Source of the DNA: Myxococcales bacterium
GTDB taxonomy: Bacteria > Myxococcota_A > Polyangia > Polyangiales > Polyangiaceae
Reading direction: 5' to 3'
Length of the DNA stretch: 41,455 nt
Assembly: GCA_013297655.1 (NCBI GenBank)
Contig: JAAFHV010000053.1
Location: forward strand, 1 to 41,455
The notes beneath the pieces were generated by a model that was not told the origin of the DNA, did not search any database, and saw only the letters and a program-made list of their open reading frames with translations. A program made the translations under genes and the position numbers. How positions within the stretch are numbered: the first letter of the stretch is position 1; each line of letters starts with the position of its first letter. Positions 1 through 6,468 of this stretch are shown piece after piece.

Positions 1-575
1 CGGTTCACGACGTCGACGCTAGGAGTCCACATTTTCTCGAGGAGCGCGTCGGCCCTTTTCCCGCGGACCTCCTTGAAGCCGCGGAACGCGTCGGCCGCCG
101 AGTACCTCTGCGCCAGGTCGTACCAGCGAAGGCGCAGGTCGACGGTGCACTCGAACTCGCCCTTGGTGTCGTCGAACGACTTCACTTCGAGGAAGAACAC
201 CGCCACGTGGACCTCGATCGGGAGGCCCTTACCGGTCGGGATCGGGATGTCGTCCTTCTCGGACTCCTTGCCCTTCTCGGTGTCCTTCGGCTTCTCCGGT
301 TTTTCGGCAGGGGGCTCTGCAGCGGCACCCGCGTCGCCGGCGCCCGCGTCGCCGGCGCCCGCGTCTTTGCCTGGGGGTACGGCCTTCACGTGGCCGTGAG
401 CGTCGGGGCGCGCGGGAGGGGCGTGCGCGGCGGGCGCGGAGGTCTTTGCGGCGCCGGCGGCGGGCTCGGCGTGGGCCGTCTTCTGTCCGCGGAGAGGGAA
501 GAAGGCCAACAGCAGCCCGAGGACACCCACGAAGAAGAGGGCGAGCGAGCGGATGCGAAAGAGGGGCCGCTTCAT
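1..575 (-). CDS. Prokaryotic pentameric ligand-gated ion channel (Cys-loop family), N-terminal part
   Basis: Partial: reads from ATG at 575-573 off the left edge (about 191 codons seen). Residues 8-27 form a hydrophobic signal or anchor. Residues about 30-115 are a low-complexity Ala/Pro/Lys/Glu linker. From about residue 117 the chain looks like the start of a pLGIC extracellular domain: LPIEVHVAVFFLEVKSFDD, then GEFECTVDLRLRWYD, then MWTPSVDVVN. This matches, in order and spacing, the GLIC/ELIC strand pattern (xVxxxIYLxxxxSxDD, then F-x-LxLxWxD, then W-x-P-x-x-x-x-N). The family forms cation or anion channels in the inner membrane with a periplasmic ligand domain; the channel half is outside the window. 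The start overlaps the stop of the upstream sensor gene by 4 bp (ATGA), so the two are probably translated together. The long linker before the ligand domain is unusual. The family call rests on motif alignment by eye. Confidence 0.72.
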   Translation of the reverse strand, partial: MKRPLFRIRSLALFFVGVLGLLLAFFPLRGQKTAHAEPAAGAAKTSAPAAHAPPARPDAHGHVKAVPPGKDAGAGDAGAGDAGAAAEPPAEKPEKPKDTEKGKESEKDDIPIPTGKGLPIEVHVAVFFLEVKSFDDTKGEFECTVDLRLRWYDLAQRYSAADAFRGFKEVRGKRADALLEKMWTPSVDVVN

Positions 576-1690
576 GATCCCTTGTTCGAGCGGATCCGCT
601 CGTATTGGGTCGCGAGGGATTGGAGCTCGTCACAGTAGTCTTCCAGCGGCTCCGCCGGCTTCGTCGCGTCGCCTTCGGCGAGGGCCGCCATGCGATCGTT
701 GAGCCCGGCGAGCGGCGCGAGGAGGAGGCCGCGGATGACGACGAACGTCATGCCGGCGCTGAAGAGGATCCCGACGAACGACGCGAGCATGAGCCAGATG
801 CGCGCGCGGCCGGCGAGGGCCTTGTCTTGGTCGAAGCTCGTCGCGAGCGCCACGACGCCGATCTGCTTGTGACCGTAGTCGTAGAGAGGCACGAGCTGCA
901 CACCCCACGGAGCGCCGGCCGAGGTGCGCTCGTAGCTCTTCGGGTTCGTGACCTCGATGTCACGATCGCTCACGAGGGAGGCGATGAGGTCCGGGTGCGT
1001 CGCGTGAAAACGGATGTACTTTCCGACCCGGTTCTTCGGCGTCATCACGTCGCCGGTGAGATCGGTCGCGATGTCGTGGAGGAGCTTCTCGTCGAAAAAC
1101 ACGGCCGCTTCGATGCCGTAAGAGGCCTTGATTCGGTCGAGCATGGGCCCGAACTCGAGTCCCATCTCGAACGTACCGACGAACTTCCCGGCCGCGTCCA
1201 TCATCGGCACGATGCCCGTCACGTTGGGGCCGGATTTCGTGACCACGAGCCCCTTCCGAACCACGTGGTTCTGGTGCACGTCCGCGAGCATCGGGCGGAA
1301 GCTGCGCTCGTCGTCGCCGAACCTCGCTGGCGAATGGAGACGAAGAAACGTGACCCCGGGCGGCGTATGGAACGAGGCGCGGTCGAGGCCGTACTTCTCC
1401 TCTTGCTCCTTGAACATGTCTTGGCATTCGGCGAGCAGCTTCGGGCGGTCGCGTGCCTCGAAGGCCGTGCGAACCGCCGGCATCGCGGAGACGAGCTCGG
1501 CGCGAACGAGCGCCTTGTCCTCCGTGGACGAGAGCACGCTCGCCAGCACTTGGCGCATGAGGACGTAGTCTCCCTCGTGCGCGGTGTGGAGCAGGCTCGA
1601 CGTAAACGAGAGCGCGAGCGCGGTGAGCAAGACGATGATGGTCATGCTCGTACCGATGATGAGGGCGGGGCCACTTCTGCGGAATTTCAC
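572..1690 (-). CDS. Membrane sensor with double-Cache domain and terminal HAMP, no output domain
   Basis: A 372-aa inner-membrane protein. TM1 lies at about residues 9-31, a large periplasmic region at about 35-295, TM2 at about 300-322, and a HAMP-like stretch at about 322-366 (PLAGLNDRMAALAEGD, then DELQSLATQYERI). The periplasmic part carries the FGDDERSFRPMLADVHQN and GIVPMMDAAGKFVGTFEMGL segments typical of double-Cache (dCache_3-like) sensors of chemoreceptors and histidine kinases. The protein stops where a kinase or methyl-accepting domain would normally begin, so it has no obvious catalytic output. Start is GTG at 1690-1688, with AAGG seven bases upstream. The stop overlaps the start of the ion-channel gene. 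I infer that it senses a small periplasmic ligand and may act through the channel or an unlinked partner. Confidence 0.82.
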   Translation of the reverse strand: MKFRRSGPALIIGTSMTIIVLLTALALSFTSSLLHTAHEGDYVLMRQVLASVLSSTEDKALVRAELVSAMPAVRTAFEARDRPKLLAECQDMFKEQEEKYGLDRASFHTPPGVTFLRLHSPARFGDDERSFRPMLADVHQNHVVRKGLVVTKSGPNVTGIVPMMDAAGKFVGTFEMGLEFGPMLDRIKASYGIEAAVFFDEKLLHDIATDLTGDVMTPKNRVGKYIRFHATHPDLIASLVSDRDIEVTNPKSYERTSAGAPWGVQLVPLYDYGHKQIGVVALATSFDQDKALAGRARIWLMLASFVGILFSAGMTFVVIRGLLLAPLAGLNDRMAALAEGDATKPAEPLEDYCDELQSLATQYERIRSNKGS

Positions 1691-1814: not shown

Positions 1815-3296
1815 TCAGCGCGGAACCCACGTCCCATGGAAGCCTGGCGGCACGCCGTGGGGCAGATCGCACACCGCGAGCGTCCGCAGATCGTCCGCGG
1901 ATAGAATGTAGAGTGCACTCTTTTCACGGGCGCCTTCGTAGACCAACGTGAATACGAAGCCTTCTGCACCCGCCCGCGCGGGAGGCACGTAGAGCGGCTC
2001 CCCGGTCAGCGCGTCGCCGAGGTCGACGGTGCGCGCGGTCCCGTCGCGGCGGTCGAAGCGAACGATCCGCGAAAAGTAGGGAGCGATGACGCTCGTGCCC
2101 TCGCGCACCTCTTCGCCCGCGATCGCGAAGACGAGGGAGTGGGCGCGCGAGATCTCGGCGGGGTCGACGGTGGGCAGCTCGCACGGGATGCGGGACACGG
2201 TCTCCTCGCGAGCTTTGCCGGTGCGCGGATCGAGCACGAAGCGCGTGAGGAGCGGCACGGGGTAAAACGCCTCTCCCGTCGCGAGCGCGCGGGCGCCGGG
2301 GAGCGTGGGAAACCGGCTCGTGCGAATGCCCTCGATGACGACCGTGCCGTCGTCGCGTTCGAAGCCGTTGACGAAGTGAAACACGAACGCGCCGGAGACC
2401 TCGAACGTGAGCCTCGGCTGGCGACGGTCACGCGGATAGAGCCGCACGATCGTGGGCTCGTCGCGGAACGTGATCGCCTCGACCGGCGGGACGAGCCCCA
2501 GGAGCGCGCGGCCCACGTCGAAGCTCGCCGGCAAGTCGAAGACGACGCGGTAGCGCGGCGTGAGCACGAAATCGTGGATGAACGTGAGCTTGGGGAGCTC
2601 GATCTCTTCGGGTTCGTCCATCGCCCCATCGGGCCGCACGCGGTAGAGAAAGAGCCGATTCTTGCGGCCGTACGCGGTGCCGAATCCATAGAGGTCTCCC
2701 GTGTCCGGGCATCTCCGCGGGTGGGCGGAGAAGGGGAGGTGAGGAGCCATCGCACGTTCGAGCCAGCCGGCGCGGTTCCGGAGGCGCCCCTCGAAGTCGT
2801 AGGGCCCCAACGTGGCTAGCGTCTCGTCGGCGATCGCGTGCGGCAGGCCGCCCTCCCACAGCGCGAGCAACACCCCCCCGTGGCGCACGATGGAGGTGTT
2901 CGCCGCGTTCTTGAAGCGGGTGCGCAGCAGGTTCGTCGCGAGGCCGCCGGGCAGGTTCGTCCCGAAGCTTCGGTAGAGCATCTTTCCGGCGCGCGCTTCG
3001 TTTTGGAAGAACGTGGTGCGCACGAAACGGTTTCGGTAGCGCACCTTGCCGTCGTCGAAGCAAAACCGAAAGATCATCCCATCGCCGTCGAACGGGTGGG
3101 AGTACGGCACGCCGTGCGCAGACTGCCGCCCCGGTCCGTTGCGAAAGAGAACGCCACGAAGCTCGCGCGGGATCTCGCCTTCGCGCACGGCGAGCTCGAC
3201 GTCGACCTCGTCGGGACACGCGGCGTGGGCCCGCTGGTGGAGGGAAGCGAGGTTGGATTTCGTCACGGCCCCCACGGTAGGGCAACGGCGGCGCAT
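1815..3296 (-). CDS. Carotenoid oxygenase (RPE65/CCD family)
   Basis: About 493 aa. Proteins of this family cleave a double bond of carotenoids or related polyenes using a non-haem Fe(II) held by four histidines in a seven-bladed propeller. Candidate ligands occur in the expected order: FSAHPRRCP, FIHDFVLTPR, VFHFVNGFE and, at the very C-terminus, GFHGTWVPR. The N-terminal ELRGVLFRNGPG and FDGDGMIFRF motifs are also characteristic. Length is normal. The frame stays open upstream to 3464, but those residues are low-complexity Arg-rich and look untranslated. I chose ATG at 3296; GTG at 3266, preceded by a G-rich run, is a good alternative. The gene diverges from the ferritin-like gene at 3463 and lies 124 bp upstream of the sensor gene in the same direction. 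Confidence 0.9.
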   Translation of the reverse strand: MRRRCPTVGAVTKSNLASLHQRAHAACPDEVDVELAVREGEIPRELRGVLFRNGPGRQSAHGVPYSHPFDGDGMIFRFCFDDGKVRYRNRFVRTTFFQNEARAGKMLYRSFGTNLPGGLATNLLRTRFKNAANTSIVRHGGVLLALWEGGLPHAIADETLATLGPYDFEGRLRNRAGWLERAMAPHLPFSAHPRRCPDTGDLYGFGTAYGRKNRLFLYRVRPDGAMDEPEEIELPKLTFIHDFVLTPRYRVVFDLPASFDVGRALLGLVPPVEAITFRDEPTIVRLYPRDRRQPRLTFEVSGAFVFHFVNGFERDDGTVVIEGIRTSRFPTLPGARALATGEAFYPVPLLTRFVLDPRTGKAREETVSRIPCELPTVDPAEISRAHSLVFAIAGEEVREGTSVIAPYFSRIVRFDRRDGTARTVDLGDALTGEPLYVPPARAGAEGFVFTLVYEGAREKSALYILSADDLRTLAVCDLPHGVPPGFHGTWVPR

Positions 3297-3462
3297 GTCG
3301 ATCCGCGGCCAGCGGGGCCGGGCGCGAGCGCCTCTCGCGACCGTCGACCTCGACGGTGGGCGCGACGTCACGGTCGTCACTAAGGCGCTTCCGCCCTGCT
3401 GGCACGATTCACGAACCCTCTCCCGACGACGGTGGCTCCCACGCGTGAAGGAGAAGCGCGTC

Positions 3463-4086
3463 ATGTCCCTCTCGCGGCGTTCGTTTTTGGTCGGTGTCGG
3501 TGCGGCGGCGTTCGTGCCGTCGGTGGGGTGCGTGGCGGAGGTGGCCGCGCCTCTCTCGGCGACCGAATCCGCGGATCTCGCGTTCGTGCGCGAAGAGGAG
3601 AAGCTCGCCCGCGACGTGTACCTCGCGCTCGCGCCGAACGGTGGTCAGCCGTTCGAGAACATCGCGTCGAGCGAGCAGACCCACATGGACCGAATGAAGG
3701 ATTTGCTCGATGCCTACGGGCTCCCCGATCCCGTGAGTGGGCGCGGCTCGGGCGAGTTTCGGAATACGGATCTGAAGGCCCTCCACGACAAGCTCGTCGC
3801 CGCAGGAAAGACGAGCCGCGGTGGCGCGTTGGCGGTAGGGCTCGAGATCGAGGAGCTCGACATCCACGACCTCGACGCGGTCATGGCGAGGAGCACACGC
3901 GACGACGTCCGGGTCGCGCTCGACGAGCTCCTTCGCGGCTCGCGCAACCACCTCCGCGCGTTCTATGGGCAGCTCGTGGCGACGGGCGGCACCTACCTCG
4001 CAAAGCACATCGATCAAGAGACGTTCATGGCGATCGCGACGTCGGCTCAGGAGCAGGGCGAGAACGGTCGGTCCTCGGGCCGCTGA
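3463..4086 (+). CDS. DUF2202 ferritin-like protein with Tat-type signal
   Basis: 207 aa. The N-terminus MSLSRRSFLVGVGAAAF is a twin-arginine-like signal, so export of a folded, probably metal-bound protein is likely. The mature part carries REEEKLARDVYLALA and SSEQTHMDRMKDLLDAYGLPDP, the Glu and ExxH signature of the DUF2202 ferritin-like four-helix fold. A second pair appears in EIEELDIHDLDAV and SRNHLRAFYGQL. The family presumably binds a di-metal site, but the substrate is unknown. ATG at 3463 follows AAGGAGAAG with good spacing, and an in-frame upstream extension has no comparable ribosome-binding site. It diverges from the carotenoid oxygenase and precedes the DUF1592 gene by 225 bp. Confidence 0.85.
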   Translation: MSLSRRSFLVGVGAAAFVPSVGCVAEVAAPLSATESADLAFVREEEKLARDVYLALAPNGGQPFENIASSEQTHMDRMKDLLDAYGLPDPVSGRGSGEFRNTDLKALHDKLVAAGKTSRGGALAVGLEIEELDIHDLDAVMARSTRDDVRVALDELLRGSRNHLRAFYGQLVATGGTYLAKHIDQETFMAIATSAQEQGENGRSSGR

Positions 4087-4311: not shown

Positions 4312-6468
4312 ATGCGCGTGCTCGTCTTCTTCGGACTGCTCGGCCTCGTCGCCGCTTCGCAGGCCGCATGCAACGACAAACCGGGCCGAACGACCGCGGC
4401 CGACACCACGCGCGGGCAGGCCCTTTACAAGGATCTCTGCGCGAGCTGCCACGGCGCGAAGGGAGAGGGCGGGGTAGCCCCCGTGCTCCGCGACTGGACG
4501 CGCGGCGAGGAGACCCTCACGCGGATCATCGACGAGCGCATGCCGCAGGGAGCGCCCGAGAAGTGCGACGGCGATTGCCCGCCCTCGATCGCGCGCTACA
4601 TCCTCGACACGTTCAAGGGCGAGGTCGTGTGCGAATCGCCGAAGCCGCTCGCGCGAGGGCTTCGTCTTCTTTCGCGCCGCGAGCTCGAAGCGACGGTGAG
4701 TGACATCCTCGCCGGCACCACGGCCGCACCCGCACCCGCCGCCCCCTGCGGCACGGTGTCGTTCGTCTACGATCCGAAGGGGCGCGCCGTGACCCGCGTG
4801 CACGTGGCGGGCTCGTTCAACGGCTGGCCGGGGACGATCGCAGGCGGCGGTTACCCGCTGACGCGCGCTGGGAACGTGTTCGCGCTCGCGCAGCCCCTCC
4901 CGAACGGCTCCCACTCCTACAAGCTGGTGCTCGACGAGCGCGACTGGATCCCCGATCCGGACAATCCGCGCCGCGGCCCCGATGGCTTCGGCGGCGAGAA
5001 CAGCCTCGTCGACGTGAGCTGCCCAGCCTCTGGGACCGCGCCTCCGGAGAAGGGCGATGACGTCGTCGCCTCCGCGTTCGTGTCGTACCCGAAGGAGGCG
5101 CGTCCCGAGGCTTACCACTTCGACCAGCACGGCCCGTCGCGCGTGACCAGCGCTCCGCTCGCCGAGGCCGTGTTCCGCATCGCCGCCACCGTGAGCCAAG
5201 CGGCCGACGTCCCGAAGATGCTCGCGTGCGGCGCGAACGTCGACGAGGCGTGCACGAAGTCCTTCGTCACGCGCGTCGGCAAGCGCGTCTTCCGGCGGCC
5301 GCTCGAGGCAGACGAGCAAAAGCGCTACGAGGCCCTCGCGCTCGGCGGCGCGGATCGCACGAAGGGGGCGCGGCTCGCGCTCCGGGCGATGCTCACGTCT
5401 CCTGCGTTCCTCTACCGCACCGAGCTCGGGGAAAAGAAGGGCGACACCTTCGTGCTCACCCGCTGGGAGGTCGCGTCGGCGATGTCGTACGGGGTGACCG
5501 GATCGATGCCCGACGACGCGTTGATGGGCGCCGCCGAGCGTGGAGATCTCGCGACCCGCGAGGGCAGGGAGCGCGAGGCGCGGCGCCTCCTCGGGACGCC
5601 ACGCGCGCGCAAGCACCTCGGCGAGTTCGCGGAGCAGTGGCTCGGCGCCGACAAGGTCGCCGAGGTGGAGAAACAATCCGCCCTCTTCCCCGACGACTCC
5701 CCTGCGCTCCGCGCCGCCATGCGCGAAGAGACGCGGCGCTTCTTCACCCACGTCGTCTTCGACGGCTCGCACCGAACGGCCGAGCTGTTCCGTGCAAACT
5801 ACACCTTCGTCGACGCGACCCTCGCGAAGCACTACGGAATGGCGGCGCCGAAGACCCCCTTCGAGAAGCAGGCCTACCCCGATCGCGCGCGGGCGGGTCT
5901 CCTCGGGCACGCGAGCGTGCTCGCGACGACGGCGCACTCGGACCAGTCCTCTCCGATCCGGCGCGGGCTCTTCGTGCGAAGGAACCTGCTTTGCCAGGAG
6001 CTGCCCCCGCCCCCGCCGAACGTAGGGGGCGTGCCGAAGATCGATCCGAACGCGACGACACGGGAGCGCTTCGCGCAGCACACCGCGAACGCGTCCTGCG
6101 CGAGCTGCCATCGCCACATCGATCCGGTCGGCTTCGGGTTCGAGCGCTTCGACGCGATGGGGCGCCTCCGCGATAGCGAGAATGGGAAGCCCATCGACGC
6201 GAAGGGCGACATGACCGACGTCGAGGGCCTCGGAAAGGGGACGAGCGCCCCGTTCGCGGACCTCGCCTCCCTCGGAGAGACGCTCGCCGAGAGCCGAGCG
6301 GCGGAGGCGTGCGTCGCCAAGCAGCTCTACCGTTTCACGCGCGGCGTCCTCGAAGGCGACGCCTGCGTCACTCGCCCGTACGAGACCCGCTTCCGCGACC
6401 GCGGGGGCGACGTCCGCGAGCTCCTCGTCGATCTCGTCTCGTCCGAAGATTTCACGGTGCGCCAATGA
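4312..6468 (+). CDS. Cytochrome c / DUF1592-DUF1588-DUF1585 protein with an inserted CBM48-like domain
   Basis: 718 aa with a lipoprotein-like signal (Cys about residue 20). A haem motif CASCH lies at 43-47 with a possible Met ligand in ERMPQG. A DUF1587-like start (LRLLSRRELEATVSDIL) is then interrupted at about 145-240 by an early-set/CBM48-like module (VTRVHVAGSFNGWPG, then GSHSYKLVLDERDWIPDP), the fold used for glycan binding in branching enzymes and AMPK beta. DUF1595 (KRVFRRPLEADEQKRY), DUF1592 (about 370-495), DUF1588 (GLLGHASVLATTAHSDQSSP) and DUF1585 follow, with a second CASCH at about 595. The DUF1592-1588 set is a widespread uncharacterised envelope family, usually paired with DUF1552 as here. 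GGGAGGT precedes ATG 4312. The stop overlaps the first mini-ORF by ATGA. Biochemical role unknown; redox or glycan work at the envelope is my inference. Confidence 0.85.
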   Translation: MRVLVFFGLLGLVAASQAACNDKPGRTTAADTTRGQALYKDLCASCHGAKGEGGVAPVLRDWTRGEETLTRIIDERMPQGAPEKCDGDCPPSIARYILDTFKGEVVCESPKPLARGLRLLSRRELEATVSDILAGTTAAPAPAAPCGTVSFVYDPKGRAVTRVHVAGSFNGWPGTIAGGGYPLTRAGNVFALAQPLPNGSHSYKLVLDERDWIPDPDNPRRGPDGFGGENSLVDVSCPASGTAPPEKGDDVVASAFVSYPKEARPEAYHFDQHGPSRVTSAPLAEAVFRIAATVSQAADVPKMLACGANVDEACTKSFVTRVGKRVFRRPLEADEQKRYEALALGGADRTKGARLALRAMLTSPAFLYRTELGEKKGDTFVLTRWEVASAMSYGVTGSMPDDALMGAAERGDLATREGREREARRLLGTPRARKHLGEFAEQWLGADKVAEVEKQSALFPDDSPALRAAMREETRRFFTHVVFDGSHRTAELFRANYTFVDATLAKHYGMAAPKTPFEKQAYPDRARAGLLGHASVLATTAHSDQSSPIRRGLFVRRNLLCQELPPPPPNVGGVPKIDPNATTRERFAQHTANASCASCHRHIDPVGFGFERFDAMGRLRDSENGKPIDAKGDMTDVEGLGKGTSAPFADLASLGETLAESRAAEACVAKQLYRFTRGVLEGDACVTRPYETRFRDRGGDVRELLVDLVSSEDFTVRQ

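Follow-up and report, generated by a model that had tools for sequence, protein, structure and literature searches.

A two-gene module, in which a chemoreceptor-type Cache receptor without an output domain immediately precedes a pentameric ligand-gated ion channel (pLGIC), was identified at the left end of the DNA analysed here (the window), an entire contig of 41,455 bp (G000:C479) in a 9.9-Mb assembly whose relatives are Myxococcota. Both are encoded on the minus strand in head-to-tail arrangement, receptor first and channel second. The same order and the same stop/start overlap were found in 30 other genomes from at least four phyla. This conserved adjacency, together with the recovery of a four-helix channel domain, supports well a functional linkage of the two genes, which the first-pass annotation had proposed as a two-gene sensor-channel system. 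The pattern of conservation further suggests that the Cache protein is probably a dedicated regulatory (auxiliary) subunit of the pLGIC. The features of the locus are as follows.

572..1690 (−): gene for the output-less Cache receptor (372 aa, GTG start); TM1, dCache_3, TM2 and HAMP in this order, with the stop after HAMP
1610..1666 (−): Cache receptor TM1, residues 9-27 (hydropathy; AF2 helix 3-68)
842..1546 (−): dCache_3 double Cache domain, residues 49-283, predicted periplasmic (PF14827, E 1.9e-25; AF2; Foldseek)
749..805 (−): Cache receptor TM2, residues 296-314 (hydropathy; AF2 helix 287-338)
596..736 (−): terminal HAMP, residues 319-365 (PF00672 below cut-off, motif, AF2; invariant G321, P326 and E355)
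572..575 (−): ATGA stop/start overlap of 4 nt, read at the junction
1..575 (−): 5′ part of the pLGIC gene, 191 aa seen, cut at the contig end (ORF 575..<1; the 3′ part is C428:1-628, locus L097)
492..548 (−): hydrophobic N-terminal segment of the pLGIC, residues 10-28 (hydropathy; signal peptide or anchor)
246..491 (−): Ala/Pro-rich stretch of varying length that links the signal to the ligand-binding domain (sequence comparison)
3..245 (−): first part of the pLGIC ligand-binding domain (profile positions 1-81 of 332)

The channel ORF begins MKRPLFRIRS, and because the window is a complete contig, its truncation reflects the edge of the assembly. A profile of the channel family located the missing 3′ part at the start of contig C428 of the same genome (profile positions 125-331 of 332). 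The translation of C428:1-628 was 71% identical to the ortholog in genome G066 and contained four hydrophobic segments, M1-M4, near IFIPLFASLLIPLLALWMN, FELANIGIGGLFSVIALSF, LFGLNYATLAISLAVVVLF and VQTAIFNVLLWALPLLTAA, followed by a stop codon. About 43 codons between the two contigs, including the Pro-loop, are absent from the assembly, and the join rests on family membership and the positions of the contig ends rather than on reads. The Pro-loop FPFD, which in the window genome falls in this gap, was present in nearly all complete orthologs (FPFDxQ, for example FPFDRQ; one FPFGKQ).

Assignment of the N-terminal part to the pLGIC family, made in the first-pass annotation from a few motifs, was weakly supported on the window fragment by Neur_chan_LBD (19.1 bits, E 1e-3) and held firmly in full-length relatives, PF02931 being matched by 31 of 32 family members with a best E of 2e-17. 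The Pfam model of the transmembrane domain (Neur_chan_memb, PF02932) matched none of the 32 members and nothing in the window genome, and NCBIfam LGIC_1 spanned both channel parts with a score far below its cut-off. The silence of Neur_chan_memb might suggest that a channel domain is lacking, a reading that the fold model, Foldseek and VIA ruled out. A profile search of the PDB with the channel returned GLIC (1e-21 over the ligand-binding domain and M1), and the AlphaFold model of the G066 ortholog (pLDDT 89.7) contained a beta-sandwich with strands from E10 to E195 and four transmembrane helices (198-220, 233-257, 267-291 and 301-331). Foldseek aligned this model end-to-end with GLIC (E ~1e-22, TM 0.78-0.84), and VIA aligned it with the GABA-A and glycine receptors over 300 residues (Z ~26). 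The four-helix domain expected beyond base 1 was therefore found both on C428 and in the model of the ortholog. From the GLIC profile match, the predicted fold and the structural alignments, the channel is a full member of the pLGIC family whose transmembrane domain has diverged in sequence and not in predicted fold, and it is predicted to form a pentamer with ligand-gated ion flux. GLIC, the proton-gated pLGIC of Gloeobacter, was the best match in both sequence and fold, and has in common with the present channel the beta-sandwich of the ligand-binding domain, the Pro-loop and four transmembrane helices. In contrast to GLIC, the paired clade has a divergent transmembrane domain that Neur_chan_memb does not see, and its M1-M2 loop carries 7-8 more residues than those of other bacterial pLGICs.

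This cytoplasmic loop insertion of 7-8 residues (consensus NKxxxGxFxVEAFELAN) was present in all paired channels and in none of 18 aligned control channels. Within it F229, E235 and N238 (numbering of the G066 ortholog) were almost invariant. Acidic residues were conserved at the inner pore mouth (E/D232 and E235), which, under the known selectivity rules of pLGICs, suggests that the channel passes cations. The window genome also contained a second, distant pLGIC-like match at G000:C17:15320-15742 (−) (locus L100; E 2.7e-10, profile positions 104-245).

The upstream gene was confirmed as a double-Cache and HAMP protein without an output domain. In the window sensor, PF14827 matched residues 49-283; the HAMP at 319-365 was recognizable by motif and scored 17.2 bits against a Pfam cut-off of 25, and the protein ended about seven residues beyond it. 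The same architecture was seen throughout the family, with PF14827 matching all 31 paired sensors and HAMP weakly matching 16 of 31 (best E 5e-4). No kinase, GGDEF, MCP or other output family was found by Pfam after the HAMP of the paired sensors, all of which end 16-27 residues beyond the invariant HAMP residue E355. Although nothing comes after it, the TM2-HAMP junction retained invariant G313, G321, P326 and E355, and conservation of at least 0.9 was found at 36 of 216 Cache positions. The AlphaFold model of the sensor (pLDDT 90.7) showed a long TM1 helix running into the double Cache domain and a second long helix passing through TM2 into HAMP AS1, with HAMP AS2 as the last element. Foldseek searches with this model returned DctB, vpHK1S-Z8, CitA and other Cache sensors in partial alignments only, and a sequence search of the PDB with the Cache profile gave no match; these partial structural matches point to no particular ligand.

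The nearest full-length relatives of the sensor, among those scanned, carried MCPsignal (three complete alphaproteobacterial proteins and one from the Myxococcota sample). These alphaproteobacterial dCache_3-HAMP-MCP chemoreceptors share the order TM-Cache-TM-HAMP with the paired sensor and run on into the MCP signalling domain, whereas the paired sensor stops after HAMP. The next-best Cache relatives in 385 alphaproteobacterial genomes were other, mostly longer proteins. The best reading of these comparisons is that the sensor is an MCP-derived, output-less receptor. A sensor that stops after HAMP need not have a channel partner, because output-less Cache-HAMP proteins occur elsewhere: locus L149 (G161:C28, 2844-5381, −) encodes two tandem stand-alone dCache_3-HAMP proteins with neither an output domain nor a pLGIC, and is perhaps another output-less Cache system. 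This tandem adjoins two divergent genes, one for an OmpA-domain protein (MotA/MotB-like by eye) and one for a membrane protein that matched no Pfam family.

Conservation of the pair was examined by scanning 84,980 species genomes, one per species, with the channel profile, which yielded 30 loci; a scan of genome contigs with the single Cache protein had returned no matches. The Cache gene was the next gene upstream in all 29 loci with room for it, the remaining locus being cut by a contig end. Carriers of the pair (31 genomes) belonged to Myxococcota (Polyangiaceae, Labilithrix, Sandaracinaceae, Myxococcaceae and MAGs), Alphaproteobacteria (Rhizobium, Mesorhizobium, Rhodomicrobium, Magnetospirillum, Pseudorhodobacter and Rhodospirillaceae), Verrucomicrobiota and Riflebacteria, that is, to at least four phyla. 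The ATGA overlap noted in the first-pass annotation at 572-575 proved to be one form of an invariant junction. Among the loci of the scan, the window and two further genomes, all 31 readable junctions were NTGA (21 ATGA, 9 GTGA and 1 TTGA), and the intervening stop codon was kept in all 31 pairs, none of which encodes a fused Cache-channel polypeptide. Overlapping genes in bacterial operons most often share 4 nt. The constancy of this overlap across pairs whose sensors are 33-59% identical to the window copy speaks for selection acting on coupled translation. A frameshift fusion of the two genes was considered and rejected, inspection by eye having shown no shared slippery stretch at the overlap. 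In Rhizobium sp. RCAM05350 (CP087974.1, locus L060), both genes of the pair were frameshifted, as if the module had been lost as a unit.

The two families also occurred exclusively together. Among 97 related genomes both were found in exactly the same seven, and among 379 genomes of the phylum in exactly the same six (naive hypergeometric probabilities of 8e-11 and 3e-13, respectively, which ignore relatedness). The pair was present in one of 385 alphaproteobacterial genomes, and ten further carrier genomes each had one strong Cache copy. Among 102 ORFs neighbouring 20 pLGICs from outside the clade, none matched this Cache family; Cache domains of other types may lie beside these pLGICs. The neighbours of these control pLGICs included, among the 25 of 92 families listed, at least four periplasmic binding proteins (SBP_bac_3), consistent with the survey of Tasneem et al. 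2004 (PMC549065). Apart from the pair itself and its shadow ORFs, flanks of up to 6 kb contained no conserved neighbour, tblastn with the Rhizobium herbae channel found no plasmid copies, and PADLOC gave no defence-family match.

Pairwise distances of sensors and channels were correlated (r 0.80 overall, 0.92 within Myxococcota and 0.96 within Alphaproteobacteria), a result that joint inheritance or transfer would give for any linked genes. Agreement of the two trees across phyla is more telling than this correlation: in both, an alphaproteobacterial pair stood beside the Polyangiaceae group, Verrucomicrobia grouped with Riflebacteria, and Myxococcota were split in several places. From these shared cross-phylum groupings, the pair most likely moved between phyla together.

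The proposed mechanism is that the chemoreceptor-type receptor (TM1, periplasmic double Cache, TM2 and HAMP) would be made first, without an output domain of its own, and the channel would then be translated by coupled re-initiation at the overlapping NTGA. The Cache protein would sit beside the channel in the inner membrane, presumably in physical contact with it. Binding of a small molecule to the Cache domain would shift TM2 and HAMP and thereby bias opening of the pLGIC, control running presumably from sensor to channel, so that the channel would replace the kinase or MCP tip as the output of the receptor. The HAMP is the only cytoplasmic part of the sensor, which must therefore pass its signal to another protein, and the channel is the candidate recipient because it is the only constant partner. 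Contact between the two is supported by the invariance of the HAMP-junction residues and by the M1-M2 insertion specific to paired channels. The M1-M2 loop faces the compartment in which the HAMP sits, and it is conceivable, as a tentative extension of the model, that the HAMP gates the channel from the cytoplasmic side by acting directly on the insertion (xxxGxFxVEAFE), which lies at the inner mouth of the pore. If true, this would be a new input route for the pLGIC superfamily.

Several observations weigh against a regulatory subunit. Receptors with HAMP usually form dimers whereas the channel is a pentamer, and this symmetry mismatch would have to be bridged; the HAMP, scoring below its cut-off, could be decaying; output-less Cache-HAMP proteins exist without a pLGIC, as at L149; and the channel has kept its own ligand-binding domain and may open without its partner. 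It is thus necessary to ask what else the Cache protein might be. Coupled translation in which the Cache protein always comes first would fit equally well a dedicated assembly or stability partner, such as a chaperone or anchor, that is made first and in matched amount and relays no signal. We consider this unlikely, as chaperoning would need neither a HAMP nor a double Cache domain conserved to the extent described (36 of 216 positions), and the sensor has signalling receptors as its nearest full-length relatives. HAMP domains are dimerization modules and could in principle form mixed dimers, by which the Cache-HAMP protein would signal to a kinase or to a different receptor array, the channel responding to the same stimulus on its own and without contact. 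The absence of a conserved kinase, MCP or regulator gene nearby, and of the Cache family without the channel in the sampled genomes, makes such a shared pathway quite unlikely.

In the proposal of Tasneem et al., PBP and Cache domains that are fused to the channel or encoded beside it would concentrate its ligands or sense them beforehand (PMC549065). That the present Cache protein acts only as such a periplasmic concentrator, or that information runs from the channel to the Cache-HAMP protein, is improbable; a concentrator would have no need of a TM2-HAMP on the cytoplasmic side, yet these are conserved. Chance adjacency, or a fragmentary pseudogene at a contig edge, might be suspected from the truncation of the window gene and from the frameshifts of L060, and is refuted by 31 of 31 NTGA junctions in at least four phyla and by the intact 3′ part on C428. 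Regulation of the channel by the Cache protein is thus the reading that we favour.

The pairing has one precedent. Tasneem et al. 2004 reported, in Rhodopseudomonas, one predicted operon of a pLGIC and a stand-alone Cache gene, together with Cache and PBP domains fused to or neighbouring pLGICs, and proposed that they cooperate (PMC549065). Like the present pair, the Rhodopseudomonas palustris operon combines a simple pLGIC with a separate Cache gene; it was a single case in one genome, with no HAMP or overlap described and no family defined. To this the present pair adds 31 paired loci, exclusivity, the NTGA junction, shared history and the channel insertion. It is a new, sharply defined variant of the kind hinted at in 2004, a clade with a separate membrane receptor, a HAMP end, invariant coupling and a remodelled channel. 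Jaiteh et al. 2016 (PMC4795631) mention neither Cache nor operons, and none of the top-ranked papers in a literature search with slight coverage of subscription journals joined pLGICs with dCache. In DeCLIC, a fused N-terminal domain modulates gating (PMC12664993). DeCLIC and other pLGICs with N-terminal accessory domains resemble the present pair in having an extra sensing module upstream of the pLGIC core, but the module of DeCLIC is a fused jelly-roll Ca2+ domain, whereas the one described here is a distinct membrane protein, a receptor with HAMP. The alpha2delta subunit of animal CaV channels, a Cache-bearing auxiliary subunit of an ion channel, resembles the proposed role of the sensor as an analogy of principle only, the channel being of an unrelated type and HAMP being absent.

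If the model is true, the sensor is a chemoreceptor in which an ion channel has taken the place of the lost kinase output, and the pair gives the study of Cys-loop receptors and their auxiliary subunits a natural model in bacteria. Little is known of the physiological role that bacterial pLGICs, relatives of the nicotinic, glycine and GABA-A receptors, play in the cell. The sensor described here, an obligate partner whose ligand-binding domain is of a classical type, offers a handle on this role through the Cache ligand.

Upstream of the sensor gene, about 125 nt away on the same strand, lies a gene for a carotenoid oxygenase of the RPE65 family (1815-3464, −; E 7e-111), which was not conserved beside the other Cache-pLGIC pairs in a comparison of flanks. 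A gene for a DUF2202 domain protein (3046-4086, +) has a listed start that overlaps the RPE65 gene on the opposite strand, and its true start is probably further downstream. The gene at 4312-6468 (+) encodes a 718-aa member of the DUF1592/1588/1585/1595 (Planctomycete-type) group of cytochrome c proteins, in which residues 161-236 form an AMPK1_CBM (glycogen-recognition) domain.
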